DNA from: Bradyrhizobium sp. 1(2017)
GTDB lineage: Bacteria; Pseudomonadota; Alphaproteobacteria; Rhizobiales; Xanthobacteraceae
Direction: 5' to 3'
DNA: 64,000 nucleotides
NCBI RefSeq assembly: GCF_011602485.2
Contig: NZ_CP050022.2
Span: 6,716,001-6,780,000 of the forward strand
The notes under the pieces were generated by a model. The model searched no databases. It was not told the origin of the DNA and saw only the letters and a program-made list of their open reading frames with translations. The position numbers were made by a program, and so were the translations under genes. Below are positions 2,303 to 56,345 of the stretch, in pieces. Numbering within the stretch: position 1 is the stretch's first letter; each line of letters begins with the position of its first letter.

Positions 2303-3478
2303 GTGAAACGACCCCTCACCATCGCGCTCGTCGCTCTCGCCGCAATCGGGGCCGGAGCAGGTTCGTGGTTCTTCGCGGACCGCCAGGCGGTCGTCGCAGC
2401 CGCGCCATTGCCCGCGCCCGCTGCCGTGCCGGTGGTCGCCGCCGCCGTTACGGGCAAGGACGTGCCGATCTATCTACGCGGCATCGGCACGGTGATCGCG
2501 TACAACACCGACGTGGTGCGCAGCCAGATCCAGGGGCAGATCGTCAAGATCGCCTTCACCGAGGGACAAGCCGTCAAGGCCGGCGACCTGCTCGCCCAGA
2601 TCGACCCGCGACCCTATGAGGCCCAAATCGAGCAGCTGACCGCCAATCGCGACAGGGATCAGGCGCAGCTCGCGAATGCCGAGGCCAATCTCTCCCGCTA
2701 CAACAAGCTGGGCGACAAGGGCTACGCGACGCCGCAATTGATCGAGACGCAGACCGCGCAAGTGGCGCAGCTCAAGGCCGCCGTGAAGGGCGACCAGGCC
2801 CAGATCGACCAGGCCAATGTCCAGCTCAGCTATACGCGCCTAACCTCGGCCATCCCCGGCATCACCGGCGTCCGCCAAATCGATGTCGGCAACGTGATTC
2901 ATCCGACCGACCCCAACGGCCTCGTCGTCGTCACCCAGATCGAGCCGATCTCACTGCTCTTCACTCTGCCCCAGAGCGACCTGCCCCTGATTCAGGAGCA
3001 CGCAGCAAAGGGAACGCTGAAGGTCATCGCCTACAGCCAGGACGACAAGATGAAGCTGGACGAAGGCGAGCTGCTGCTGGTCAACAACGAGATCGCAGGG
3101 ACGACCGGCACCGTCCAGCTCAAGGCGGAATTTCCAAACCTTGAACACCGGCTGTGGCCGGGACAGCTGGTCAACGCCCGCCTGCTGCTGGAGGTGCGAA
3201 AGGATGCGCTGACGGTCGCAGGCTCGGCCGTGCAGCAGGGCCCGAACGGCAGCTATGTCTATGTCGTGTCTTCCGACCAGAGCGTCAGTCTGCAACCCGT
3301 TCACGTCGCACAGATCAGCGACGGCCAGGCGCTGATCGATCAGGGATTGAAGTCAGGCGACGTCGTCGTGGTCGACGGCCAGTATCGACTCACCGAAGGC
3401 AGCCGCGTTCATGAGCTGCACGGCAAGGCCGCGCGTGAAGCCGACCTGCAAAGTTCCGTGCAGGACGCCATCCCATGA
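2303..3478 (+). CDS. RND efflux periplasmic adaptor subunit (MdtA-like)
   Basis: This 391-residue membrane-fusion protein links an inner-membrane RND pump to an outer-membrane channel. It has an N-terminal anchor (TIALVALAAIGAGAGSWFF) without a lipobox. The barrel-sandwich half-motif IRGIGTVIAYNTDVVRSQI... (reading YLRGIGTV here) follows, then the lipoyl-like segment GQAVKAGDLLAQIDPRPYEAQ, a coiled-coil hairpin (about residues 100-170) and the beta-barrel and membrane-proximal domains. The frame is open further upstream, but the GTG at 2303 gives the family-typical N terminus. The stop overlaps the permease start by four bases (ATGA), indicating translational coupling. No outer-membrane factor gene is present nearby. 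Confidence 0.9.
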   Translation: MKRPLTIALVALAAIGAGAGSWFFADRQAVVAAAPLPAPAAVPVVAAAVTGKDVPIYLRGIGTVIAYNTDVVRSQIQGQIVKIAFTEGQAVKAGDLLAQIDPRPYEAQIEQLTANRDRDQAQLANAEANLSRYNKLGDKGYATPQLIETQTAQVAQLKAAVKGDQAQIDQANVQLSYTRLTSAIPGITGVRQIDVGNVIHPTDPNGLVVVTQIEPISLLFTLPQSDLPLIQEHAAKGTLKVIAYSQDDKMKLDEGELLLVNNEIAGTTGTVQLKAEFPNLEHRLWPGQLVNARLLLEVRKDALTVAGSAVQQGPNGSYVYVVSSDQSVSLQPVHVAQISDGQALIDQGLKSGDVVVVDGQYRLTEGSRVHELHGKAAREADLQSSVQDAIP

Positions 3479-39180: not shown

Positions 39181-40449
39181 CTAACTCACTTCGACCTTGC
39201 GAATGGTGACCTTGCTGCCCTCTGCGAGGTTCACCGCCGGATTGAGCACGACCTGGTCGCCGGGCTGCACCCCCTCACGCACTTCGACCGTGGTGCCGAA
39301 ATCCCGCGCGATCGAGACGTGCTGCAAATGAACGATGCCATTGCGCACGAGCGCGACGTGAAGGCCGTTCTGGTCGAAGACGAGCGCATCCGACGGAACG
39401 ATCATCGACGGCGTCTTTTGCGGGATCGACAATTCGACCGTGCAGTAGATGCCGGGACTGAGCACGCCGTCCGGATTCGGGACGTCGATCTCGGTCAGCA
39501 GCGTTCGGCTTCCCGGCTGCAACGCGGTCGCGATCCGCGTGACCTTGCCCGGAAACGTCCGGCCCGGAATCTCGGGGACACGGATATCGGCATCGACGCC
39601 GGGGGCTACCCCGAAGGCCTCGTCCTGCGGCACGAAGACCTGGGTTCGGATCACGTTGGAATGCATCAGCGTGAACATGAAGGTCGATCCGGCCTGCACC
39701 AGGCTGCCATTGTCAACGTTGCGTTGCGTGATCACGCCATCGAACGGCGCCACCACGCGCTGATAGGCCTTCTCCTGCTGGAGAACGCGAATCTGAGCCT
39801 CTTGCGCCGCGATGTTCGACTGGGCGACGCCGACGGCCGCCTGCTGCGCTCGCAGGGTGAGACGGTCATTGTCGCCCTGCTGCGCCGTCAGCCAACCCTG
39901 CTTGACGAGATTGCTGTCCCGCGCATTGGTGACGTCGGCGAGTTCGCGGCTTGCTTGCGCCTGCTGCAGCGCCGCCTGGTTCTGCGCGAGCGTCGCCTGC
40001 GCCTGCGCGATCTGCTGGTTCAGCTCCGGAGCGGTGATGTCGGCGAGGAGATCGCCCTTCTTCACATGGGCGCCGATATCCACGTAACGCTTCTCGATAT
40101 AGCCGCTGGTCCGCGCGAAGATGTTTGCCGCCTCGAACGCCGTCGTCGTCGCCGGCAAGGTGACCTTCATGATGTCGCCGCTGGGTCGAACCGCCGCCAC
40201 CCGAACCTCCGGCACGGCGGTTCTGACTTGCTCTGCCAATGCGGCGACCTCGCGCGCGGCCTGATAGTGCCGCCAGCCACCGATGCCGAGACCGCCCACG
40301 AGGATCAGAACGATGCCGCCTCCGAGCACCACACCACCGTAGCGGCGGCCCGATTTCGGCTCCTTGCCGGGCAGCTCAACGATCCGCAGGCTCTCCGCAC
40401 CCGGACGGCCCGTCTTCTCGTCGTCGGTCCGTATGCGAACGTCATTCAT
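39181..40449 (-). CDS. RND efflux periplasmic adaptor subunit
   Basis: The 422-residue membrane-fusion protein has a charged cytoplasmic N terminus (about 35 residues) followed by one anchor helix (GGVVLGGGIVLILVGGLGIGG). The lipoyl halves (VDIGAHVKKGDLLADITAPEL and VAPFDGVITQRNVDNGSLV) flank an alanine/glutamine-rich coiled coil, and a beta-barrel domain follows. The stop of the permease overlaps its start by four bases. Operon order is permease, adaptor, exported protein, the reverse of the first pump. Control by the upstream two-component pair and sigma factor is likely from the gene order. Confidence 0.9.
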   Translation of the reverse strand: MNDVRIRTDDEKTGRPGAESLRIVELPGKEPKSGRRYGGVVLGGGIVLILVGGLGIGGWRHYQAAREVAALAEQVRTAVPEVRVAAVRPSGDIMKVTLPATTTAFEAANIFARTSGYIEKRYVDIGAHVKKGDLLADITAPELNQQIAQAQATLAQNQAALQQAQASRELADVTNARDSNLVKQGWLTAQQGDNDRLTLRAQQAAVGVAQSNIAAQEAQIRVLQQEKAYQRVVAPFDGVITQRNVDNGSLVQAGSTFMFTLMHSNVIRTQVFVPQDEAFGVAPGVDADIRVPEIPGRTFPGKVTRIATALQPGSRTLLTEIDVPNPDGVLSPGIYCTVELSIPQKTPSMIVPSDALVFDQNGLHVALVRNGIVHLQHVSIARDFGTTVEVREGVQPGDQVVLNPAVNLAEGSKVTIRKVEVS

Positions 40450-43400
40450 TGCGGTTGCTCCTCGAATACGCCGTGTTGGGGCCTGCCATCGTTGCCCTTG
40501 CGCAGCATGGCGAACAGATAAGGCACGATCAGCAGCGTCGTCGGGGTCGCGAACAGCAGCCCGCCGATGACGGCCCGTGCGAGAGCTGCATTCTGCTCCT
40601 CGCCCGGCCCTCCGATCGCCATCGGGATCATGCCGACGATCATCGCGGCGGCGGTCATCAGGACGGGACGGATCCTGGTGCGGCCGGCGCTCAGCGCGGC
40701 CTGGAATGCGGAGTGTCCCTTCAATTGCTCATCGCGCGCGAACGTCACCAGCAAAATGGAGTTCGCCGAGGCCACGCCGACCGCCATGATCGCGCCCATC
40801 AACGAAGGCACGTTCAGCGTCGTTCCCGTGATGAACAGCATCGTCACGATGCCGCAGAACGTCGCCGGCAGCGCCAGGATGACGACGAAGGGATCGCCGA
40901 AATTCTGGTAGTTCACGACCATCAGCAGGTACACCAGGATGGCCGCGAACAGCAGTCCGATTCCCAGATCGCGGAACGACTGATGCATGCTCTGGATCTG
41001 CCCCAGAACCTGGATCGAATTGCCCGGCTGGAGCTGCTTCTGCAGCGTGGACGTGACCTTGTTGATATCGGCCGCGACGCTGCCGAGATCCCGACCCTGC
41101 ACGCTCGCATAGATGTCGAACACCGGCTGGACGTTGGCCTGGTTCGAGTTGGTGGGAACGGTCCCGCGCTTGAAGGTGGCGACATTGCTGAGCAGGCCCG
41201 GCACCGTCTGCCCGCTGGCGGCAAGCGACGCCGACACCGGCGTGTTCCCGAGGGCATTCAGCGAATTGGCCCTGTATTCCGGTGTCTGCACGGCGAGGTA
41301 ATAGGGAATGCCCGACGTCGGGTCGGTCCAGAAGTTCGGCGAGACCTGCGCGGACGAGCTGAGGCTGACATTGATGTTGGTCGCGACCGTGCTGGCATTG
41401 AGGCCCAGTTGCGCGGCTCGGGTCCGGTCGATGTCGGCGTAGAAGGCGGGAGCATCGACTTCCTGCTGCAAATGAGCATCGACGACCCCAGGGATCGTGG
41501 ACAAGTTCTTCTGCAGCTCCTTTGCAACGGCCAGATTGTTGGTGCCGTAGCCGACCGTGCGAACGTCGATCTGTGCGGGAAGTCCGAAGTTCAGGATCTG
41601 CGTGACGATATCGGCCGCCTGGAAATAGAAGGTGTCCTCGGGGAACGCCGATGGCAGCACCTGGCGCAGCTTCGCGACGTAATCCGCAGTCGGCTTGTGC
41701 CCATCCTTCAGCGACACGAGGATGGTGCCGTCATTGCCCCCTATCGTCGAGCCGTCTGTGAATGCGAGATTGTAGGCGCGTGCCGGAAGCCCGATATTGT
41801 CGACGATCAGCGCCCGGTCCCGCTCCGGAATGACCTCGCGAATCTTATCCTCCACCGCCTGGAAGATCGCCTCCGTCTTCTCGATGCGGGTGCCCGCGGG
41901 CGCGCGAACGTGGAGCTGGATCTGGCCGCCGTCGATCAGGGGATAGAAGTCGCGGCCGACATAGACGAACATGGTGGCTCCGAGCGCCAGCACCAGCACG
42001 GCGACGACGGGCACGATGGCGCGACGCTGCAACAAGGTCAGCAGGAGCTCGGAGTAAGCATTGCGCAATCGATCGAAGCCGCGCTCGAACGCGGCCGAGG
42101 CGCGCGCGAAGATGCCTGACGGGCTTTCGCCCTCACCGTGGCGCCGCTCGCCTTTCAACAGCAGGCCGATGGTGATCGGCGTGAGCGTCCGCGACAGCCC
42201 ATAGGACGCCAGCATCGCGAACACCACCGCAAGGCCGAGCGGCGTGAACAGATATTTGGCCGGCCCCTCCAGGAATACGACCGAGGTGAACACGCAGCTG
42301 ATGGCGAGCGTGGAGACCAGCGTCGGCACCGCGATCTCGGCGGCCCCGTGCAGCGTCGCATCCGGCAACGGCATGCCTTCTTCGGTCCAGAGCCGGTAGG
42401 TGTTCTCGATCGTCACCGTGGAATCGTCGACCAGGATGCCGACCGCGAGCGCAAGCCCGCCAAGCGTCATCGTGTTCAGGGTCTCGCCGAGGAAATACAG
42501 GACGACCAGCGAGGACAGCATTGCGAGCGGGATCGAGATCAGGACGACCAGCGTCGATCGCCACGATCCCAGGAACATCAGGATCATCAGCGCCGTGAGT
42601 CCTGCCGCGATCGCGCCCTCCCGCAGCACGCCATTGACGGAATGGGTGACGAACACAGACTGATCGAACAGCTCGTTGATCTTGAGCCCCGCAGGCGCCG
42701 ATGCACGAATCGATTTCAGGGCGTTCTTCACACCATTGACGACGGCGAGCGTGGAGGCATCACCGTTTTTGATGACGCTGAGCAGGACGGCGCGGTGGCC
42801 GTCCTCGCGCACGATGTTCTGCTGCACCTGGGAGCCGTCCCGGACCTGGGCCACGTCCTTCAGGAAGATCGTGGCGCCGTTCGCGAACTTGACCGGGATC
42901 ATGTTGAGATCCTCGATCGAGGCCGGGGTCGCGTTGGTCCTCACGGTGTACTGGGTGTCGCCGATCTTGGTCGTGCCGGTCGGCAGCGTCAGGTTCTGGG
43001 TGTTCACCGCATTGACGATGTCGAGCGGCGTCAGCCCGCGCGACAGCAGCTTGTTCGGATCGATGTCCACCATGATCTGCCGGTACTTGCCGCCGGCGGG
43101 CGTCGGCAGCGTCACGCCGGGAACGGGCGCCAGTTGCTGGCGGACCCGATAGATGCCAAAGTCATAGAGCTGCTGCTCGTTCAGGCTGTTGGATTCGAGG
43201 CTGAGCTGGAGCACCGGCACGCTCGAGGCGTTGAACTGCACGATGATGGGCGGCTGAATGCCGGGCGGCATCAGGGCGCGGATGGCGTTGGTCGCCGACA
43301 CGATCTGCGAGATCGCCAGATCGAGATTTACGTCGGGCTGGAAGTAGATCTTCTGAACCGACAGCCCGTTGAGCGTCTGCGCCTCGATGTTCTTGATGCC

Positions 43401-43628
43401 GCTGACATTGGCGCTGATCGAGTACTGGCTATAGGTGCTGACGCGCTGCTCCATCTCCGGCGTCGAGAGGCCGGTATAGCTCCAGATCACCGTGACCACG
43501 GGGATGCGGATCTGCGGGAAGACGTCCGTCGGCATCGACCGGATCGCGATGCCGCCGAGAAACAGGATCAGCGCCGCGAGCACGTAGAATGTGTGCGGAA
43601 GCCGCAGCGCGAAGCGAACAATTCCCAT
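40446..43628 (-). CDS. RND efflux permease, TM10 lysine missing
   Basis: The 1060-residue permease has full RND topology. In TM4 the paired acids are present (Asp401, Asp402 in VGILVDDSTVTIEN). In TM10, where AcrB-type pumps have a Lys before Asn, the sequence reads GVASANSILLV at about residue 950-960, so the proton-relay lysine is replaced by Ala. This is a known subfamily feature in other bacteria, and the coupling residues may differ. The gene starts 79 bp after the sigma factor gene and overlaps the adaptor gene by 4 bp. The substrate is unknown. Confidence 0.92.
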   Translation of the reverse strand: MGIVRFALRLPHTFYVLAALILFLGGIAIRSMPTDVFPQIRIPVVTVIWSYTGLSTPEMEQRVSTYSQYSISANVSGIKNIEAQTLNGLSVQKIYFQPDVNLDLAISQIVSATNAIRALMPPGIQPPIIVQFNASSVPVLQLSLESNSLNEQQLYDFGIYRVRQQLAPVPGVTLPTPAGGKYRQIMVDIDPNKLLSRGLTPLDIVNAVNTQNLTLPTGTTKIGDTQYTVRTNATPASIEDLNMIPVKFANGATIFLKDVAQVRDGSQVQQNIVREDGHRAVLLSVIKNGDASTLAVVNGVKNALKSIRASAPAGLKINELFDQSVFVTHSVNGVLREGAIAAGLTALMILMFLGSWRSTLVVLISIPLAMLSSLVVLYFLGETLNTMTLGGLALAVGILVDDSTVTIENTYRLWTEEGMPLPDATLHGAAEIAVPTLVSTLAISCVFTSVVFLEGPAKYLFTPLGLAVVFAMLASYGLSRTLTPITIGLLLKGERRHGEGESPSGIFARASAAFERGFDRLRNAYSELLLTLLQRRAIVPVVAVLVLALGATMFVYVGRDFYPLIDGGQIQLHVRAPAGTRIEKTEAIFQAVEDKIREVIPERDRALIVDNIGLPARAYNLAFTDGSTIGGNDGTILVSLKDGHKPTADYVAKLRQVLPSAFPEDTFYFQAADIVTQILNFGLPAQIDVRTVGYGTNNLAVAKELQKNLSTIPGVVDAHLQQEVDAPAFYADIDRTRAAQLGLNASTVATNINVSLSSSAQVSPNFWTDPTSGIPYYLAVQTPEYRANSLNALGNTPVSASLAASGQTVPGLLSNVATFKRGTVPTNSNQANVQPVFDIYASVQGRDLGSVAADINKVTSTLQKQLQPGNSIQVLGQIQSMHQSFRDLGIGLLFAAILVYLLMVVNYQNFGDPFVVILALPATFCGIVTMLFITGTTLNVPSLMGAIMAVGVASANSILLVTFARDEQLKGHSAFQAALSAGRTRIRPVLMTAAAMIVGMIPMAIGGPGEEQNAALARAVIGGLLFATPTTLLIVPYLFAMLRKGNDGRPQHGVFEEQPQ

Positions 43629-48388: not shown

Positions 48389-48485
48389 TCTGGATGCGCG
48401 GTGTTCGGCCCGGTCGGCATGTCACGATCCGGGCCGACGCAGCGTCGCGTTCTCGCGTGTACCTTCTGCCAACATCTTTCCACTG

Positions 48486-48501
48486 TGTGATTTGAGTCAC
48501 A
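48486..48501 (+). promoter_or_regulatory. CRP-type binding site at the class II position
   Basis: TGTGATTTGAGTCACA matches the CRP consensus TGTGA-N6-TCACA exactly. Its centre (48493.5) lies about 41.5 bases before the expected start of a transcript driven by the TACAAT at 48523-48528. This is the class II activator position. The region is 98 bp past the previous gene and 220 bp from the next one, which is on the other strand. Confidence 0.55.
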
Positions 48502-48534
48502 ACAGAATCATTCGCTCTCGCCTACAATCACCGG

Positions 48535-48641
48535 GCATGGCCGCAAACAAGGTAACGGCGGTACGCACGAGGCTGGGGAGGCGATCAACAGCTACGGACT
48601 TTTCAAGCCGCCAGGGTGAAGAACCCGGCGGCTTCTTGTTT
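48535..48641 (+). ncRNA. candidate CRP-controlled small RNA
   Basis: The 323-bp gap 48389-48711 contains, in order, a CRP-type palindrome, a TACAAT minus-10 box (48523-48528), and a strong intrinsic terminator at 48605-48634 followed by CTTGTTT. A transcript from about 48535 would be roughly 105 nt. The frame starting at ATG 48537 would read through the terminator and has no ribosome binding site, so a non-coding RNA is more likely. Its targets are unknown. The proposal rests only on spacing and motifs. Confidence 0.4.
48605..48634 (+). terminator. intrinsic terminator
   Basis: AAGCCGCC-(A)-GGGT pairs with ACCC-GGCGGCTT, a 12-bp stem with one bulged A and a GAAGA loop, followed by CTTGTTT. 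It ends the proposed small RNA. It could also act on the minus strand for the DUF2934 gene that stops at 48712. Confidence 0.7.
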
Positions 48642-48711
48642 GGCAACGCGACGGTCGAAGCCCCGCCTTGCTGCCAATGCGGGGCAACACGGGCCGCAGC
48701 GGCGATCGCCG

Positions 48712-49023
48712 CTAGAACGATGCCGGGCCTTTCCTCTGTTCGCGCTCGTCTTCGACCTGCCGTTCCGCCTCGAGCCAGAATTCCAGGTCGCGGTTGACCG
48801 GGCGGCCGGCCCGCTCCCAGAGCTCATAGGCGCGCGCCCGCACCCTGCCCCGCCGCAGCATGCGGCCGAGCTTCTGCTTCAGCTCCTCGGCGAAGCTCCT
48901 GAATCCCCGGACAGTGGTTTCGTCGCGGGCGAGCGCCGCCGCCCGCGTTGCGAGCTCGATCTGGTGCTCGATCTTCTTCTGCTCGTCCACTGCCGACACT
49001 GCCGCGGAAAGGGATGTTGTCAC
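48712..49023 (-). CDS. DUF2934 domain protein
   Basis: This protein is 103 residues. The C-terminal half matches the DUF2934 pattern RVRARAYELWERAGRP...EFWLEAERQV, seen in many small rhizobial proteins of unknown function. The N-terminal half is a charged helix. The start is a GTG at 49023 with a poor ribosome binding site; a shorter start is possible. A second DUF2934 gene lies 168 bp upstream on the same strand. Confidence 0.65.
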   Translation of the reverse strand: MTTSLSAAVSAVDEQKKIEHQIELATRAAALARDETTVRGFRSFAEELKQKLGRMLRRGRVRARAYELWERAGRPVNRDLEFWLEAERQVEDEREQRKGPASF

Positions 49024-49191
49024 AGCCGTGCTGGTGAATTCCGTTCCGGCAAGTTCTGTTCCCCCGGAAGCCGCCGGCGCCGCTATTGTTTGGGCATGAT
49101 CGCTTCGGAGAGGCGCCGCAAAGTTTTCCGGGCAGCGGATGGTTTTCGCAGACCCATCCCAGACCGAAGCAGAATGGGCGGGCCTTGTCGG

Positions 49192-49353
49192 TCACAGCGT
49201 ATCCGGCGTTCGCAACGTGCTCGACTCGTCCTCGTTGCGCAGCTCCTGCTCGGCGGCGCGCCAAAATTCTTCGTCGCGACCTTCGGGCTTGCCCGCTTGC
49301 TCCCATAATTTGTGCGCGCGTTCCCGGATCTCTTGCTCGGCCGGCTTGGGCAT
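49192..49353 (-). CDS. very short DUF2934 protein
   Basis: This 53-residue protein begins MPKPAEQEIRERAHKLWEQA and continues GKPEGRDEEFWRAAEQEL. That is a complete, minimal DUF2934 motif with the conserved LWE, GKP and WRAAE positions. ATG 49353 has AGGAG seven bases upstream. It is not long enough for usual gene-length cut-offs. It is probably co-transcribed with the larger DUF2934 gene at 48712-49023. The function is unknown. Confidence 0.72.
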   Translation of the reverse strand: MPKPAEQEIRERAHKLWEQAGKPEGRDEEFWRAAEQELRNEDESSTLRTPDTL

Positions 49354-49668
49354 TTCATCTCCTGCTGATGAAGCACGGCCCCACCCTGGGGGGTATGGGG
49401 GGCTTGGAGGCGGGGCCGTGCAGGCCAGCGATCGGCGGCGACGCTGACCCGCGGAGTCAAGCCGCGGTGGATGCGAGAGTTCCTATTTGTGCGCGAGCAC
49501 GCGTCACATTGCATGAGGTCCATCATATTCGATTGATGGGCTTGCCGAGTCGGCGGTAACGGGGGAGGGTTCGGCCGGGAATTCGCACGTCACTCGATAG
49601 GCAACGTTCGAGAGAAGCAGCCCGAGGCGGAGCTGGCACGTAACGGCAACACTGGATGCGGTTAGAGA
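49354..49668. other. 315-bp intergenic stretch, G-rich
   Basis: It contains a G-run-rich segment at about 49382-49422 and a CCGCGG...CCGCGG inverted repeat near 49451-49474. No open frame with a ribosome binding site was found. It probably holds the promoter of the DUF2934 pair. Confidence 0.35.
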
Positions 49669-50050: not shown

Positions 50051-50114
50051 CTGGAAGAGGAAATCTTGCTTCTCGCAGAACGGAAGCTCAAATGCTTTGC
50101 GAGTTGTCGCAGTG

Positions 50115-50139
50115 CTTGGCTTGGCTTGGCTTGGCTTGG
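50115..50139. repeat. (CTTGG)5 pentanucleotide tandem repeat
   Basis: There are five perfect copies of CTTGG in an intergenic region, 68 bp past the stop codon of the peptidase gene. Such tracts change length by slippage. It is not within a coding frame or a promoter that can be named. Confidence 0.8.
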
Positions 50140-50159
50140 CACGGCGCAGCAAAGGCTCG

Positions 50160-50206: not shown

Positions 50207-52234
50207 TTACAGCAATCCGACCTTGTGCATGATCTGCCGGATCTGAGCCGGATCAGGATCCATCATCGTGGGGGCGAGTGTCGCGCCCGCCGTCTGTGCG
50301 GGACCGCGCGCGACGGCGCTCGAACCGTTTTGCGTCAAACCAGCGGACTGTAGCATCATCCCACCTGCCGTTTGTGCCGGACCGCGCGCCACGTTGTTCG
50401 CACTGGCCTGCACTGGATCGACGGACTGCGGCGCCGGCGTGCTCCCCGGAACCATGCTCGGTGCTTCGACCGGCCGCAATCCAAGCAGACGACGCAGCGT
50501 TGCCAGCGAAGGATCGGTTCCGGACACAGCGGCGGCAACCGGGGCGACACCGGTTTCGAGGCCGAGCGCCCGCATCGCGTTCGGCAGTCCCGCGCCGGTA
50601 CGATTCGGGTCACCGAATTGCAGCGGCGTTGCGGTCTCCTTCAGGATCTGGAACAGCCGCTCGACACGGCGTGCATCGCGATTCTGGAAGGTTCCCTTGG
50701 TGAAGTCCGGATGGTGCGCCAGCACGAGCGCGGCCAGGCCCGTGACATGTGGCGTCGCCATCGAGGTACCGTCCCATGCACCGAAACCATCGGCGGGAAG
50801 CGACGAGACGATCCCGACACCGGGCGCGCAGACGTCGACCTCCGGTCCGAAGCAAGAGAACTTTGCTGGAAAATATCCGTCGTGGCTCTGGAAGCCGTCG
50901 AGCGCTTGCTGCGAATGATAGCTGTCATCGGGAAACTCGCCCCACTTGCCCAGTGCGGCGACCGCCAGGCAATGCGGCGTCGAAGCCGGAAACTGCACCG
51001 GCCCCGAGGAATTCCCGGCAGCAATGATGCAGGCCATGCCCATTTGCTTGGCCCGGACGATGCGTTCCTCGATGATCCGCGAAGGCTCGCCGCCACCCAG
51101 GCTCATATTGGCGACATCGATGCCATGCTCCATGCAGTAATCGAGCGCGGAGACGAGATCGCTGAACCGGCCGCCCGGGAAGATGCGGCAAACATGGATT
51201 TCCGCCGCGGGGGCGAAGCCGCGGATTCCGCCACCGGTGCCGACCGGACCGCCGGCGATGATTCCAGCGCAATGCGAGCCATGGCCGATCGTGTCGACGG
51301 TCCACGCCGTCTTGTCGTTGCCGACGATGCTGGTGCCTTCGGTGATGCCGTGCAGGTTGCGATGGGTTGGCGCCAGGCCGGAATCGATGACCGCGATCTT
51401 GATACCGGCGCCGTTAAAGGACGGCGGCAGACGATCAAGGCCCATCGCGCGCTCACCCCAACCCATCAATTGCTGGCCGGGGAAGTTCCGTAGAACCGCG
51501 CCGAGCGCCCTCACGACGATCCGGTTGACACTGTTGGGAACGAGCTGCGGACGATCGAGCCAGAAGGTCCAGTAGTCGATCTTCGGTTTGACGAGGATCG
51601 AGCGGATGGTCTCCGGCGTTTCGCCCTGGAGGGTCACCGTGGCACGGCCGGTGGCGTCGGTGATGCCCTGCGCCGGCCACATGCTGCCGAACACATAGAC
51701 CTCGGCTTCGGGCAGCGGGCCGTCCTGGCCCAACACTTCGATCGTCGCCGTGAAGCCGTTAGCCAGCGGCGTAAGCACCCCCGGATTGGGAAGCTGCGGC
51801 GTGGTCGGGTCGAGCATGTAGGTCAGCCGCTCGTCACGCTCCACCGCGCAACGCCCTTGTGCCTGGGTCTGCAGCAATTTGGCCTTGTCGGGAGTCATCT
51901 TGGCGAGGACCAGCGGACTGAGCGGCACTTGTCCGAAGTCTGCGCTCTGAAATCCGAACAGGCGCGGCGGAGCGACCGTTTTCACCACTTCGATGTCAGG
52001 GCTGTTGGTGAGCTGCTGGGTCAGAAAGTCGACGCTGAAGGTCGCAAGCCCCGGTTGCTGCTGCGGCGCGATCATGAATTGCGCCGGGCGCGATGCGAGC
52101 GTTGCGGGCCCCTGCCCTCGTGCCGGTGACTGGCTCGCGGCGTTTTCCGGAGACGCACCGTTGCCGTTTGCCACCGGTTCGGTCGCTTCGTGCTCAGTCC
52201 GCCCGGAAGTTCCTGATTTGCCTCTCGTGGCCAT
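50207..52234 (-). CDS. subtilisin-like S8 serine peptidase with N-terminal prodomain
   Basis: This protein is 675 residues. A Gly/Ala/Ser-rich head without a signal peptide is followed by a prodomain-like region (about 50-140), a small beta domain (about 155-235) and the S8 catalytic domain (about 275-570). The triad is Asp284 (VIDSGLAP), His318 (GHGSHCAGI) and Ser491 (GTSMATPH), with oxyanion Asn408 (AAGNSSG). The C-terminal tail carries two ARGPAQTAG repeats. ATG 52234 is chosen for its GAGGAGG six bases upstream; the frame extends 15 codons further. It is the last gene of the SARP/repeat/prodomain set. Without a signal peptide, it acts in the cytosol or leaves by an unseen route. Confidence 0.9.
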   Translation of the reverse strand: MATRGKSGTSGRTEHEATEPVANGNGASPENAASQSPARGQGPATLASRPAQFMIAPQQQPGLATFSVDFLTQQLTNSPDIEVVKTVAPPRLFGFQSADFGQVPLSPLVLAKMTPDKAKLLQTQAQGRCAVERDERLTYMLDPTTPQLPNPGVLTPLANGFTATIEVLGQDGPLPEAEVYVFGSMWPAQGITDATGRATVTLQGETPETIRSILVKPKIDYWTFWLDRPQLVPNSVNRIVVRALGAVLRNFPGQQLMGWGERAMGLDRLPPSFNGAGIKIAVIDSGLAPTHRNLHGITEGTSIVGNDKTAWTVDTIGHGSHCAGIIAGGPVGTGGGIRGFAPAAEIHVCRIFPGGRFSDLVSALDYCMEHGIDVANMSLGGGEPSRIIEERIVRAKQMGMACIIAAGNSSGPVQFPASTPHCLAVAALGKWGEFPDDSYHSQQALDGFQSHDGYFPAKFSCFGPEVDVCAPGVGIVSSLPADGFGAWDGTSMATPHVTGLAALVLAHHPDFTKGTFQNRDARRVERLFQILKETATPLQFGDPNRTGAGLPNAMRALGLETGVAPVAAAVSGTDPSLATLRRLLGLRPVEAPSMVPGSTPAPQSVDPVQASANNVARGPAQTAGGMMLQSAGLTQNGSSAVARGPAQTAGATLAPTMMDPDPAQIRQIMHKVGLL

Positions 52235-52281
52235 CTGCGGCCTCCTCAATGTTTTGCGTGTCCAATGTTTGCCCACCAAAA

Positions 52282-52512
52282 TCAGTCGGCATCGAATTGC
52301 TTCAGCGCTGAATTCGGTTCGACCACGAGCGTGGCAAACGTCGATTTCAGGCGGTCGGCCTGGGTCTTCGTCATCGAAAGGATGACGACGTCGGGTGCGA
52401 TCTGCGCGACTCGCTTCACGCCGGGTTCACGCTGCAAGTGTTCGTTGAGCTGACCGGACTGGACCGGGTCTCCCTGCACGATGAATTCCTGCGACGCGTT
52501 TGAATCCGCCAT
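52282..52512 (-). CDS. free-standing subtilisin prodomain-like protein (putative inhibitor or chaperone)
   Basis: The 76-residue protein has an I9-inhibitor-like pattern: EFIVQGD, a helix ending LQREPGVKRV, then DVVILSMTKTQADRL and TLVVEPNSAL. Line by line it matches the prodomain of the adjacent peptidase: QFMIA; SPDIEVVKTVAPP; LVLAKMTPDKAKLL; AVERDERL. The MT-x3-A-x2-L block is identical in spacing. It is therefore probably a duplicated prodomain that binds the protease in trans as an inhibitor or folding helper. ATG 52512 is chosen; a GTG at 52527 is possible. It ends 47 bp before the peptidase start. Confidence 0.65.
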   Translation of the reverse strand: MADSNASQEFIVQGDPVQSGQLNEHLQREPGVKRVAQIAPDVVILSMTKTQADRLKSTFATLVVEPNSALKQFDAD

Positions 52513-52574
52513 CTGGCTTCCATTCACATTTGTGCGGAGAGGACGGGCTTGCGCCCGCCCTCTCCGGGTGGGGT

Positions 52575-53756
52575 CTAGTGCATCGTGCCACCGGGCTGGC
52601 CGGCGTTGAAGACGCCGAGCTGGCGACCGATATCGAGGCCGGTCTGGGCTCCCTGACCAATCTTCTTCAGCACGCTCCAGAAGCTTTGCAGCTCCATGTC
52701 CGTTGGCGGTGCTGCCGCGGCCGGCTGCAGGCCGGGCTGGCCGGCGTTGAACACGCCGAGCTGGCGACCGATATCGAGGCCAGTCTGGGCACCCTGGCCG
52801 ATCTTCTTCAGCACGCTCCAGAAGCTCTGCAGCTCCATGTCGGTCGGCGGTGCGGCCGCGGCCGGCTGCAGGCCGGGCTGGCCGGCGTCGAAGACGCCGA
52901 GCTGCTGGCCGATATTCACACCGGTCTGCACGCCCTGGCCGATCTTCTTCAGCACGCTCCAGAAGCTCTGCAGCTCCATGTCGGTCGGCGGTGCGGCCGC
53001 GGCCGGCTGCACGCCGGGCTGGGCGCTGAAAACGCCGATTTGTTTGCCGACATCCAAGCCGGTCTGGACGCCCTGGCCGATCTTCTTCAGCACGCTCCAG
53101 AAGCTCTGCAGCTCCATGTCGGTCGGCGGCGCGGCCGCGGCCGGCTGCAGACCCGGCTGGCCGGCGTTGAACACGCCAAGCTGCTGGCCGATATTCACAC
53201 CGGTCTGAACGCCTTGGCCGATCTTCTTCAGCACGCTCCAGAAGCTCTGCAGCTCCATGTCGGTCGGCGGCGCGGCTGCAGCCGGCTGCAAGCCGGGCTG
53301 GGCGCTGAAAACGCCGAGTTGTTTGCCGACATCCAAGCCGGTCTGGACACCTTGGCCGATCTTCTTCAGCACGCTCCAGAAGTCCTGCAGTTCCATGTCG
53401 GTCGGCGGCGCGGCCGCAGCCGTCTGCAGGCCGGGCTGGCCGGCGCTGAACACGCCGAGTTGGTGACCGATATTCACACCGGTCTGAACGCCCTGGCCAA
53501 TCTTCTTCAGCACGCTCCAGAAGCTCTGCAGCTCCATGTCGGAGACCTGCGCCGAACCTTGCGCCATGTCCGGACCGGCGGAAAACGGCAGGAAACCTCC
53601 GCCGATGTTACCGACGACGCCGCCGATCGTCTTTCCCTTCTTGCCGCCGAGCAGATTGCCGATAACTCGTCCGGCCGCACCGCCGAGGATGGAGCCGAAT
53701 ATTCCCTGCGGGTCCAATTGGCCGTAATCTTCAAATTGCTGCTGTGTTCCAGTCAT
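52575..53756 (-). CDS. seven-repeat glycine-zipper protein, candidate multi-peptide precursor
   Basis: This 393-residue protein has an N-terminal glycine-zipper segment (GSILGGAAGRVIGNLLGG and GGVVGNIGGG, about residues 20-55). Seven tandem units begin DMELQ at residues 73, 120, 166, 213, 259, 306 and 353. Each unit has a helix SFWSVLKKIGQG, a zipper with Gly at every fourth position (GVQTGVNIGQQLG) and a linker ending AAAAPPT. The last unit is cut to 41 residues and ends GGTMH. No signal peptide or cysteine is present. ATG 53756 has AGGAG nine bases upstream. The units resemble membrane-active peptides joined by processing linkers, but no cleavage site is proven. Confidence 0.75.
   Translation of the reverse strand: MTGTQQQFEDYGQLDPQGIFGSILGGAAGRVIGNLLGGKKGKTIGGVVGNIGGGFLPFSAGPDMAQGSAQVSDMELQSFWSVLKKIGQGVQTGVNIGHQLGVFSAGQPGLQTAAAAPPTDMELQDFWSVLKKIGQGVQTGLDVGKQLGVFSAQPGLQPAAAAPPTDMELQSFWSVLKKIGQGVQTGVNIGQQLGVFNAGQPGLQPAAAAPPTDMELQSFWSVLKKIGQGVQTGLDVGKQIGVFSAQPGVQPAAAAPPTDMELQSFWSVLKKIGQGVQTGVNIGQQLGVFDAGQPGLQPAAAAPPTDMELQSFWSVLKKIGQGAQTGLDIGRQLGVFNAGQPGLQPAAAAPPTDMELQSFWSVLKKIGQGAQTGLDIGRQLGVFNAGQPGGTMH
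52578..53540 (-). repeat. seven direct 138/141-bp repeats inside the repeat-protein gene
   Basis: The units are 47, 46, 47, 46, 47, 47 and 41 codons long. Two forms alternate: type A carries VNIG(H/Q)QLGVF(S/N/D)AGQPG, and type B carries LDVGKQ(L/I)GVFSAQPG. The last two units form a third type with GAQTGLDIGRQ. The order A-B-A-B-A-C-C implies growth by duplication of an A-B pair, then of a C unit. Unequal recombination and copy-number change between strains are expected. Confidence 0.9.
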
Positions 53757-53852
53757 GATCGAAATCTCCTGATGAAGTGCCTGACCCGCGAGCGACACGC
53801 GCTCCCCAAAGGGAGCCGGGATCACTACGCACGATTGTGCGAGCGGCTAAGG

Positions 53853-54677
53853 CTACGACCAGGACCGTGATGCAGGTGTCACGTCGAGCGTGAAAGTTGC
53901 GTCAAAGTTTTTGGCGCGGGGCAATTTGAGTGAGGCAGATCTCGTTGAAGCGTGGAACATGCGGCGCATATCGCGCTGCAGCTGTTCGGTCTCCTGCTCC
54001 GGCACGGCGCGAACTTCCCGCCACAGCACGGAGCGGCAAAGATCATACTGGCGCAACGCGTCGGTACGGCGACCTTGTTGCGCATAACAGCGCATCAAGA
54101 TGCGATGGACCCCCTCCTGAAGCGGATCGACCGCAAGAATACGCAGCGCGAGTGCGATCGCGATATCCGTGTGTTCGCGCCCGCCGGCGTCCAGCAGGCC
54201 CGCAAGCGCCTGCATCGCCTGTGTTCGCAATCGTTGGCGCTCGGCAGACAGCCAGGCCTCGAATTGGCATGAAGTCGAGCTGATACCCTCGAGAAGGTCG
54301 CCCCGATAAAGCAGCGCCGCACGGGCCAACCGTTCGGGATCGCCCTCCCTCAGGAGCCGCTCGAATTCCCCGACATCGGTACTGATGGCATTCGGGCAGA
54401 TACGGATGTCGTCGCGATCGGCGGAGATCACATCGGGATAGTGCGGCAGCACACGCCGCAAGGTGAGCAGAGCTTGTCGAAGGCTGGCACGCGCACGATC
54501 GCCGAAGTGACCATCCCATAACAGGGTAGCGAGCTTGCCGCGTGAAATGGCCCGTGGGGAACTGAGCGCGACATAGCCTAGAAGAGTTGCAGCCTTGCGA
54601 CTGGGGATCAACACCGACTCGCCGGAAGCAGAGACTACCTCGACCCCGCCGAAGAGATTGATCTGGAGCAGCGACAT
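53853..54677 (-). CDS. SARP-type regulator (winged helix plus BTAD)
   Basis: The 274-residue regulator has an N-terminal OmpR-type winged helix (about residues 5-95; RKAATLLGYVAL, RASLRQALLTLRRVL). A bacterial transcriptional activation domain follows (about 95-245; FEAWLSAERQRLRTQAMQALAGLL, DPLQEGVHRILMRCYAQQGRRTDALRQYD, VPEQETEQL). SARPs activate secondary-metabolite or peptide clusters in actinomycetes; they are rarer in proteobacteria. It lies 96 bp upstream of the repeat protein in the same direction, so it probably controls it. ATG 54677 has AAGGAAAAGGAC upstream, and a CRP-type box lies at the promoter. Confidence 0.88.
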   Translation of the reverse strand: MSLLQINLFGGVEVVSASGESVLIPSRKAATLLGYVALSSPRAISRGKLATLLWDGHFGDRARASLRQALLTLRRVLPHYPDVISADRDDIRICPNAISTDVGEFERLLREGDPERLARAALLYRGDLLEGISSTSCQFEAWLSAERQRLRTQAMQALAGLLDAGGREHTDIAIALALRILAVDPLQEGVHRILMRCYAQQGRRTDALRQYDLCRSVLWREVRAVPEQETEQLQRDMRRMFHASTRSASLKLPRAKNFDATFTLDVTPASRSWS

Positions 54678-54705
54678 TGTCCTTTTCCTTCGGTCATTGT
54701 CTTCT

Positions 54706-54755
54706 GTCCCTCATATTATTCACTACCGAACACTTTTCTTGTGATCATGATCACC
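54706..54755 (-). promoter_or_regulatory. CRP-type class II promoter of the SARP gene
   Basis: The box TGTGATCATGATCACC (54740-54755) differs from the CRP consensus TGTGA-N6-TCACA at one position and contains a perfect 14-bp palindrome GTGATCATGATCAC. On the minus strand a TAATAT minus-10 box (54718 to 54713) follows. The start would be near 54706, about 41.5 bases from the box centre, the class II position. The same arrangement is seen at 48486. Confidence 0.55.
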
Positions 54756-54759
54756 GACG

Positions 54760-56345
54760 ATTCGGACAGCACCCACCGTCCCACACGTCATCGACCAAGT
54801 CGAAATGCTCTTATGGCCACCATACAACCTGAATTAGACAAAGCAATGGATGTCGCTCGGCGTCGATTCAGCAATTTGTGAGACTGCAAATCTTCAATGT
54901 GTGAGATAGCCCATAGGTAGAATGCGAGTTGTAAGCGCAGCGATCGCTCGCATTTGATGCATTTGTCGACGACGAAAACAGACCAACTGCGCGAGACGCA
55001 GCATGACATGTCGCGACGAACGCGGTGCAAGTGTCGTGACGTCGCGCGATGGTTGTGAGTTGTTCCACGAACGCAGCGTTCTCGTCGCTGCTTGCGCTCG
55101 CTGCCATCTGCATTGAAGGTTGCTCGAGACCTCCGCCGCACTGGCCTACCATCGATCGGCCCACGCCGGCGTCGCACGCGGGCGTCGTGCACTTGCCATG
55201 TTCAGGCTGGAACCGCAGACACCAAGCGCATACGAGGCAGTGCGTCAGAGAGTCGCTGTGCCGGTGGTGCGGCAATTGGCGGCTTGGGGGATAGGCCCGT
55301 GGGGTCATCGCGCTCCGCCCGTGACGATCGCCGGCCTCGTTGCTCACGCGGCGAGGACCCCCGGTAAGGGACGCTCTCGAAAAACTGATCGAGCGGCTCT
55401 GCATCGAGCGGTTGCGGGAGAGCGGCGTGGCAGGTCGAACGCAATGCCATCGCGGATGCCCCTCCATCCAGCTTCGGTTCTCGAACGCGGACACAGCCTT
55501 GCATTCTCGCGGCTGATTTCACCCGAGCTTTGCTTGATCGCTCCACCCTCTTGTCCAAGAGGGCGCAGGGAAGGCCGGGTGCTGACCTCGCACCCGCGGT
55601 CTGCCGCGCAAAATGCACACGCAGAAAACCGCACAGCAGCATACAGGTGGTGCCGATCACTCGGCCTTCCCTGCGCGATGGTCGGACGGCTTATGCCGTG
55701 CTCTCCCGGGAGCCGAGTTCCTTCTGGCCTCCCTCGCCTCGCAGAATTCACCGGCGCCCGCGCCGGTTGACGCAGATGCCGCCTCCGCAAGAGCTTGACC
55801 GTAGCAACGACGGCCAGGACCACACGGTTTTGCCGTACGCACGGCCCGCCATTTCGCCGCAGTTTTTCCAGCCCTGTCGACGGAGCCGGAAACCTACAGA
55901 CGAGACGAAGCCTAGCAGCGCCGTTCGTCCGCGCGATGCCCAGGGCTCACGGAGAGCAATCCGCCCTGCCCCTAGCTGTCGCGCCCGACGCTGCCGCGTC
56001 CACCGCAAGCCCCGGCTCGCGAACGTGACGACCACACGATCGCCCCTCAAGGGTGAGCCGGGATGGGTAAGACATACGCCATTTCCGAATTTCGGTAAAG
56101 TGGAATATTTTGGTGGGGAGGGGTTGACGGGGTGCGACACAGGCCCAACGCGGCCGTCGCTGAGGGGCTTGCATTGACTGCAACATCCTTCGGCAGGCCA
56201 TCTCAAGCAGCAGCAACCAAATAAACAACCGGAGCATTTTGGCGTCGGAGGCAACGCCGCCGAAACCGTGCCAAATAACGCACGCAGCGCACCATAGCGG
56301 CAAGTTCCATTCGACGGAAAAGTGCTCTAAAATAGCGAAATTGCG
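54760..56345. other. 1.6-kb gene-poor region
   Basis: No open frame here has a ribosome binding site together with a protein-like product; the several 60-210-codon frames on both strands overlap each other and are Arg- and Ser-rich shadows. The region 54840-55040 has lower GC than its surroundings and contains TGCGAG/CTCGCA and GCATTTG direct repeats near 54945-54970. The interspersed repeat copy 2 lies at 56049-56131. A stretch of about 170 bp then precedes the antiporter. It may be a decayed insertion site. Confidence 0.5.
56049..56131. repeat. interspersed repeat, copy 2
   Basis: The 83-bp element starts AAGGGTGAGCCGGG, has a core CCGAATTTCGGTAAAGT and ends GGTTGACGGG. It has the same orientation as copy 1 at 49973-50050 but is clearly diverged between the conserved ends. 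Confidence 0.6.

Follow-up and report, generated by a model that had tools for sequence, protein, structure and literature searches.

The Locus and Its Genes

A cassette of four genes lies in a 64,000-nt stretch of the Bradyrhizobium sp. 1(2017) genome (NZ_CP050022.2, positions 6,716,001-6,780,000; the genome is one contig of 7,858,280 bases), the whole of which is referred to below as the window. In order of transcription, these genes encode a SARP-type regulator, a multi-unit repeat protein, a 76-amino acid (aa) protein and a subtilase. A first-pass annotation had reported four co-directional genes here, and this observation is confirmed, with all four on the minus strand. The regulator (274 aa, 53853-54677) is conserved beside the repeat gene. 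Its BTAD domain is well above the Pfam cut-off (70.6 vs. 22.1 bits), whereas the OmpR-type winged helix with which it had also been credited (Trans_reg_C) falls below threshold (19.1 vs. 26.2 bits).

The repeat protein (393 aa, 52575-53756) starts at an ATG at 53756 that follows AGGAG, and its tail ends in GGTMH. It had been described as consisting of repeat units alone, but its N-terminal 58 residues form a separate glycine-zipper module (53583-53756) with eight GxxxG motifs, ending in FLPF↓ and followed by SAGP (the arrow marks the unit boundary here and below). In an alignment of nine sequences, D15, P16, Q17, G18 and the glycine ladder of this module are invariant, and its match to the Pfam family Rick_17kDa_Anti is sub-threshold (19.1 vs. 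24.2 bits). The module is followed by seven units of 45-47 aa, as had largely been described, and by a 10-residue tail. Units 1 (45 aa, 53448-53582), 2 (47 aa, 53307-53447), 3 (46 aa, 53169-53306), 5 (46 aa, 52890-53027), 6 (47 aa, 52749-52889) and 7 (47 aa, 52608-52748) end in LGVF↓, and unit 4 (47 aa, 53028-53168) ends in IGVF↓. The repetition is visible at the DNA level too, and synonymous codon differences outnumber amino acid differences in all seven equal-length unit pairs compared. Each unit has a net charge of 0 or -1 and an amphipathic N-terminal half; the best of four segments has a moment of 0.48, with 12 of 2000 shuffles as high, and the corresponding counts for the others are 109, 176, and 154 of 2000. 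Pfam and NCBIfam matches to the protein come mostly from the repeats and are under cut-off, with the exception of ATG5_HBR (22.7 vs. 21.3 bits), of which no stretch passes alone.

The 76-aa protein (52282-52512) is a free propeptide-like (I9-like) protein. As had been claimed, it matches the prodomain of the next gene (hhalign 97.6%, E 3e-12), and its propeptide fold and kinship to a subtilase prodomain are those of an I9-type propeptide inhibitor. Searching the PDB with its sequence returned nothing relevant. Homologues P0014, P0023, P0026, P0031, and P0035 carry the name "ABC-type Fe3+-hydroxamate transport system substrate-binding protein," which probably goes back to a match to Peripla_BP_2 that is below threshold (E 0.051 for the window protein).

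The subtilase (675 aa, 50207-52234; Pfam S8, 134.1 bits) has its best start at 52234, after GAGGAGG. Its intact triad (D284, H318, and S491) bears out the earlier assignment as an S8 peptidase, and the chain comprises its own prodomain (~49-139), a beta-strand-rich region (~155-245), the catalytic region (~252-558) and a low-confidence tail. A simple hydropathy check found no signal-peptide-like hydrophobic N-terminus in the repeat protein, the small protein or the subtilase. A short tandem run of CCAAG lies just 3' of the subtilase gene, at ~50109-50140.

Unit Ends and the Tail of the Free Propeptide

Units of this kind share one type of boundary. In 17 window-type loci (L019 was left out for an in-frame stop, L020 for masked bases, and L021, L022, and L088 for contig ends), regular expressions caught 104 KKI units and 105 ends, at two to eight units per protein; P1 is Phe in 103 of the 105 ends and P2' is Ala in 101. 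In L042, where the expressions caught four ends, five full units are found by eye, ending in F, L, F, F, and L. The glycine-zipper module is unlike the other units in look, yet it has the same type of end, the 15 caught in the 17 loci being LPFSA (11), LPFAA, LPFSV, LPLSA, and LPFST (one each), and the glycine-zipper modules of other lineages end likewise. The first-pass annotation had the peptidase acting on the repeat protein, which is indeed a plausible substrate, and placed the cuts at AAAAPPT linkers. These linkers precede six of the seven units here and are rare elsewhere (21 of 104 units in the 17 loci), which argues against cutting at them; what is conserved at the boundaries is F↓xA.

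The small protein carries an E-x-(N/D)-x-x-L motif, common to it and the subtilases' own prodomains, and has a Phe three residues past the Leu, in the tail EPNSALKQF-DAD. If, as we take it, the propeptide of BPN' supplies the register (helix-capping Glu69 and Asp71, P1 Tyr77), then Phe73 of the small protein would be P1 and Leu70 would be P4. A published account describes residues with a capping role and a propeptide whose tail occupies S4-S1 (PMC6993865). L70 and F73 are both kept without exception (17 of 17). Of 100 homologues, 94 have a tail of Leu-x-x-[FLY] (78 F, 15 L, and 1 Y) followed by zero to five residues, and 21 end exactly there. Most of P0093-P0110 end in Pro-Leu. The six off the pattern are P0058, which is truncated, P0083, P0084, P0091, and P0098, which are different, and P0105, which fits by eye. 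In the subtilases' own prodomains (E-x-D-x-x-L), the residues at the place of the Phe, read by eye, are M, M, A, L, H, A, and T, with Phe in none of the seven.

The inhibitor tail was slid along its own partner protein, with other windows of the inhibitor as controls and ties broken by position. In the window, the junctions take seven of the top eight places and none of 69 controls does as well; in a second Bradyrhizobium clade with zipper-type units (clade 2), they take eight of the top 10, with none of 81 controls as good. The tails of other lineages were read after the idea of tail mimicry had been noted.

Conservation and Related Cassettes

The repeat-protein profile matches 27 of the 265 genus genomes examined for it, comprising 20 strong matches (E < 1e-60, full relatives) and seven of the zipper type. 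The subtilase subfamily occurs in 49 of 257 genus genomes, including all 27 of these. Homologues of the repeat protein lacking a peptidase had been named beforehand as evidence that would speak against the proposed link, and none was found in the genus, where all 27 carry one. The four-gene sets sought in other genomes are present as well: all four genes stand in order in 18 of the 20 full-relative genomes, and in the other two (G001 and G035) the locus is interrupted by a contig end. Among the 18, the contig of G016 ends within the subtilase, and in G029 an in-frame stop interrupts the repeat gene. At L019/L035 (Bradyrhizobium sp. Y36), the repeat-protein frame has an early in-frame stop, and the other three genes are open. 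In the zipper-type genomes, partner and subtilase lie on one contig in six of seven and on two contig ends in G143. The remaining 22 subtilase genomes hold a third type (clade 3) in the six that were read by eye.

Beyond the genus, a Rhodopseudomonas metagenome-assembled genome (MAG; L042) also has the gene set. Relatives of the repeat protein and the subtilase in metagenomes and MAGs come from contigs of the same size, linkage being deduced from equal longest contigs (P0002/P0143, 86,207 bases; P0008/P0147, 7,156; P0007/P0037, 62,464). The first of these pairs belongs to a Gemmatimonadota MAG, which suggests that the gene set reaches another phylum.

The last three genes recur in three further lineages, with different repeat proteins. 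In clade 2 (L084-L087 and L118), the subtilase is ~40% identical, the free propeptide ends in KLSPF-stop and the partner, where complete, has 524-639 aa with nine to 11 zipper units ending in LPF↓(E/D)A. In family f92 of another class (L104 and L110-L112), the subtilase looks active and the propeptides of the four loci end in LSLFD, LSLFGSP, LSLFD, and LSLFD; the zipper units end in LPF, once in LPL, with Q-rich stretches between them, and the L110 partner is partly masked. In G207 (L115, a contig of 3,068 bases), the propeptide ends in PLRF-stop and the units end in MIPF↓ and LLPF↓. Comparison of sequences thus shows that a subtilase without a recognizable export signal, a free propeptide and a multi-unit protein occur together as a conserved set in four lineages, and it supports the proposal that the genes belong together and that the small protein is a relative of free propeptides. 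Related genomes dominate these counts, which represent about four independent lineages. The regulator, which had been counted as part of the set, seems to lie outside its core: by eye, none adjoins the clade 2 or family f92 cassettes, although weak matches to it of 31-33% lie some kb off at the edge of L085 and L086; the L115 contig is too short to judge.

The subtilase subfamily is rare beyond the genus, occurring in eight of 327 genomes of the order, five of 398 of the phylum and five of 280 of the order of G574 at the cut-offs applied, and not all of these have the cassette. Among the weaker matches, to which L098 and L109 also belong, the four that were read (L095, L100, L101, and L105) have no such partner or free propeptide adjoining. 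Near another subtilase-like gene in L095, an open frame of L-A-x-D-L-Q-A-A-R-L repeats (2851-3256) was noted, which may be a wrong-frame artifact of DNA repeats. Beyond the genus, the repeat-protein profile picks up mostly glycine-zipper proteins of the ordinary kind; matches occur in 72 of 398 phylum genomes, and apart from three of the genus, their best E is 1.6e-8, with G574 among them.

Many partner proteins end in (S/T or A)-hydrophobic-His (GTMH, VTYH, ATIH, QTLH, QTVH, SSIH, and SSVH). This was seen in the window, L084-L087, L104, L111, L112, P0005, P0006, P0009, and P0010, and in a 152-185-aa protein of clade 3 (L026, L119, and L120), so that the ending is shared across otherwise dissimilar proteins; L042, P0002, P0003, P0008, and L115 are exceptions. 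In the window-type loci, a C-terminal (T/S/A)-x-His is present in 16 of 17, L042 ending in TAAGA. Judging from these sequences, this ending could be a sorting or recognition tag.

Upstream and Flanking DNA

A candidate regulator-binding site (54872-54905, minus strand) lies ~195-228 bp upstream of the SARP start, where CTCACANATTG occurs twice without a mismatch at a distance of 23 bp. The two copies are the only matches in the window at one mismatch or fewer, a count that is not significant against the 2.13 expected by chance. Both copies are kept in nine aligned upstream regions; 19 were tried, and the start-codon pattern missed the other 10. The site is not shown in L020, L042, L075, L076, L078, or L080, where DNA similarity ends at the gene (~54670-54690), before the site is reached. 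Direct repeats are the usual target of SARPs, and autoregulation of the SARP gene through this site is therefore plausible. The search for a consensus sigma-70 promoter was negative.

Flanking the cassette, one on each side, the stretches at 55486-56206 and 48470-49500 are ~75-90% conserved in several relatives, often at a different side or distance relative to the cassette.

Comparison With Known Systems

QhpE and PatA/PatG are subtilases of peptide-maturation pathways, and a cyanobactin-type likeness had been drawn for the cassette. That likeness does not hold, as the PatA/PatG model (TIGR03895) gives 33.1 bits vs. a cut-off of 421.05. QhpE (NF049966) gives 62.8 bits vs. 165, and the best NCBIfam match, the type VII secretion system mycosin (TIGR03921), gives 121.2 bits, under its cut-off of 278.75. 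Unlike in the QhpE and cyanobactin pathways, no modification enzyme was recognized beside the locus. A phage or plasmid origin was also rejected: viral contigs held no relative of the repeat protein, and the plasmid search with the subtilase led to no more than two Streptomyces pseudopeptidase relatives at E 1e-30. Of nine PHROG matches to the repeat protein, a single one had a stretch passing alone (E 0.0078), and all are read as low-complexity chance.

Kex2, a general Golgi protease, has Lys-Arg as its sites. In the repeat protein, the unit ends lack dibasic sites, and simple hydropathy shows no signal-like N-terminus. The fungal Kex2-processed repeat proteins (KEPs; ustiloxin type and alpha-factor) are alike in being multi-unit precursors in which every unit boundary has a subtilase site (PMC7329392). 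They are unlike the present cassette in having a signal peptide and relying on Kex2, whereas the cassette has its own bacterial subtilase, presumed to act at Phe, and a free propeptide, both encoded next to the repeat protein.

Propeptide folds encoded as genes of their own are known from stand-alone inhibitors such as Plasmodium SUB1-ProM, Pleurotus peptidase A inhibitor 1 and yeast peptidase B inhibitor. SUB1-ProM adjoins subtilase genes and inhibits its cognate enzyme, and in the authors' model its tail leaves S4-S1 incompletely filled (PMC6993865), whereas the tail of the present protein carries the unit-end residues of the presumed substrate. In Myxococcus, PopC is a subtilase lacking a signal peptide, whose partner PopD restrains its secretion by complex formation and which cuts p25 to make a signal (PMC6434023). 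The likeness is a functional one; the PopC substrate has a single site, PopC is secreted with the help of Oar, and there is no repeat protein. On the tests made, the cassette resembles KEPs in its manner of working, with a SUB1-ProM- or PopD-like brake, and is a member of none of these systems. No description of this gene combination was found in open-licence PMC papers, which is not proof of absence.

Proposed Mechanism and Alternatives

We lean, by a modest margin of confidence, toward reading these genes as a regulated polyprotein-processing cassette in which a subtilase, braked by a free propeptide, would cut the repeat protein after each unit-end Phe. The free propeptide would bind the subtilase as a normal propeptide does, placing its Leu in S4 and its Phe in S1, and block the enzyme, its tail imitating the unit ends L-G-V-F↓(S/N/D)-A-G or F-L-P-F↓(S/E/G)-A. 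Once the inhibitor is removed or outnumbered, the cytoplasmic subtilase would cut after the unit-end Phe, and the products would be the glycine-zipper module and seven near-neutral peptides of 45-47 residues, each with an amphipathic stretch. It is more speculative that the released pieces self-associate or act at membranes, and that the SARP turns the cassette on via the direct-repeat site upstream of its own gene.

Several observations weigh against this proposal. Cleavage, inhibition and the release of peptides are all deduced from sequence. Every window-type unit also carries L-Q-S-F-W, which fits Leu-x-x-Phe, and tail matching outside the two clades above has little power or fails: one of three junctions with none of 88 controls as good in L112, none of two junctions with 78 of 78 controls as good in L104, and one of three junctions with three of 79 controls as good in L115, where the Phe falls one residue early. 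Most of the 100 inhibitor homologues are closely related, so that they amount to about four independent cases. By eye, a Gln stands at what we take to be the place of subtilisin Gly166, the floor of S1, and might disfavor Phe. In clade 3 (L024-L027, L119, and L120), the triad is kept by eye without Phe ends, and no free propeptide was seen in the called frames of the six of 22 genomes read by eye; the partner there has RQL-S/T-QQDV repeats and is accompanied by a membrane-like peptidase, presumably M48-like by eye, and, where called, by the 152-185-aa protein mentioned above. Finally, some relatives with a broken triad keep a low-complexity partner. In two Streptomyces plasmid relatives (L089 and L090), the catalytic Ser is replaced by Thr or Ala, and in L099 (G920, another family of the same order), His is replaced by Gln and Ser by Ala. 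A Q-rich partner gene adjoins each of these three, no free propeptide was seen beside them in the called frames by eye, and the enzymes are probably dead. Binding may therefore be the older role.

Because these dead-triad relatives keep the partner gene, binding without cutting is a live rival, if an unlikely one. On that account, the subtilase fold binds the unit ends and cuts not at all or incidentally, and the partner is a self-associating scaffold of zippers and amphipathic helices that it decorates. The glycine ladders would suit self-association, and P0125, a close subtilase relative in the window's own clade, has Asn for the catalytic Asp and is probably inactive. However, Asp, His, and Ser are kept in the loci read that have unit-end Phe and a free propeptide, whereas the three dead enzymes have neither, and an inactive enzyme would have little need of an inhibitor of its own.

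An antimicrobial or bacteriocin-like role, with released units exported to kill or signal to competitors, is somewhat less probable again. The amphipathic N-terminal half, a copy number that varies between loci and SARP-type control would agree with it, but the net charge of 0 or -1 and the lack of a visible signal peptide would not, and by eye no transporter or immunity gene directly adjoins the cassette. The flanking DNA also speaks against this role: 14 of 21 loci share part of it, and in seven it was not found. The products may nonetheless be exported, because PopC, likewise without a signal peptide, leaves the cell (PMC6434023), and an RND efflux operon (39181-43628) lies ~6.5 kb from the cassette in the window.

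Least probable is cell suicide or phage defense, in which a trigger would free the subtilase and the released pieces would damage the cell's own membrane: a cytoplasmic-looking protease with an inhibitor and multi-copy putative membrane peptides, and a patchy presence (49 of 257), would fit the model of protease-activated bacterial gasdermins, but the PADLOC results were limited to one match to a generic subtilase and weak ones to IetS, no defense genes were recognized by eye beside the window locus, and three genomes of the other class hold the cassette at the same place by eye, next to efp/earP and gltX, which is unlike a defense island.

Implications

Beyond the processing cassette proposed for the window, we tentatively suggest, with rather less confidence, that such loci may represent a bacterial class of peptide-releasing polyproteins that parallels the fungal KEPs, each with its own cytoplasmic subtilase and a propeptide tail that copies the cleavage sites. 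If this is true, the substrate's sites could be read off the last residues of the inhibitor (Phe in the window, Leu in relatives with an inhibitor ending in NPL or KPL), and inhibitor, protease, and substrate would co-evolve through a single four-residue motif, making a simple set for testing such co-evolution. The brake would be built in and readable in sequence, and cleavage sites and peptides could be predicted from genomes and metagenomes in which the genes in question are now mostly annotated as hypothetical proteins. Ultimately, a soil bacterium would be making small peptides from one multi-unit gene, much as fungi make mating factors and ustiloxins.

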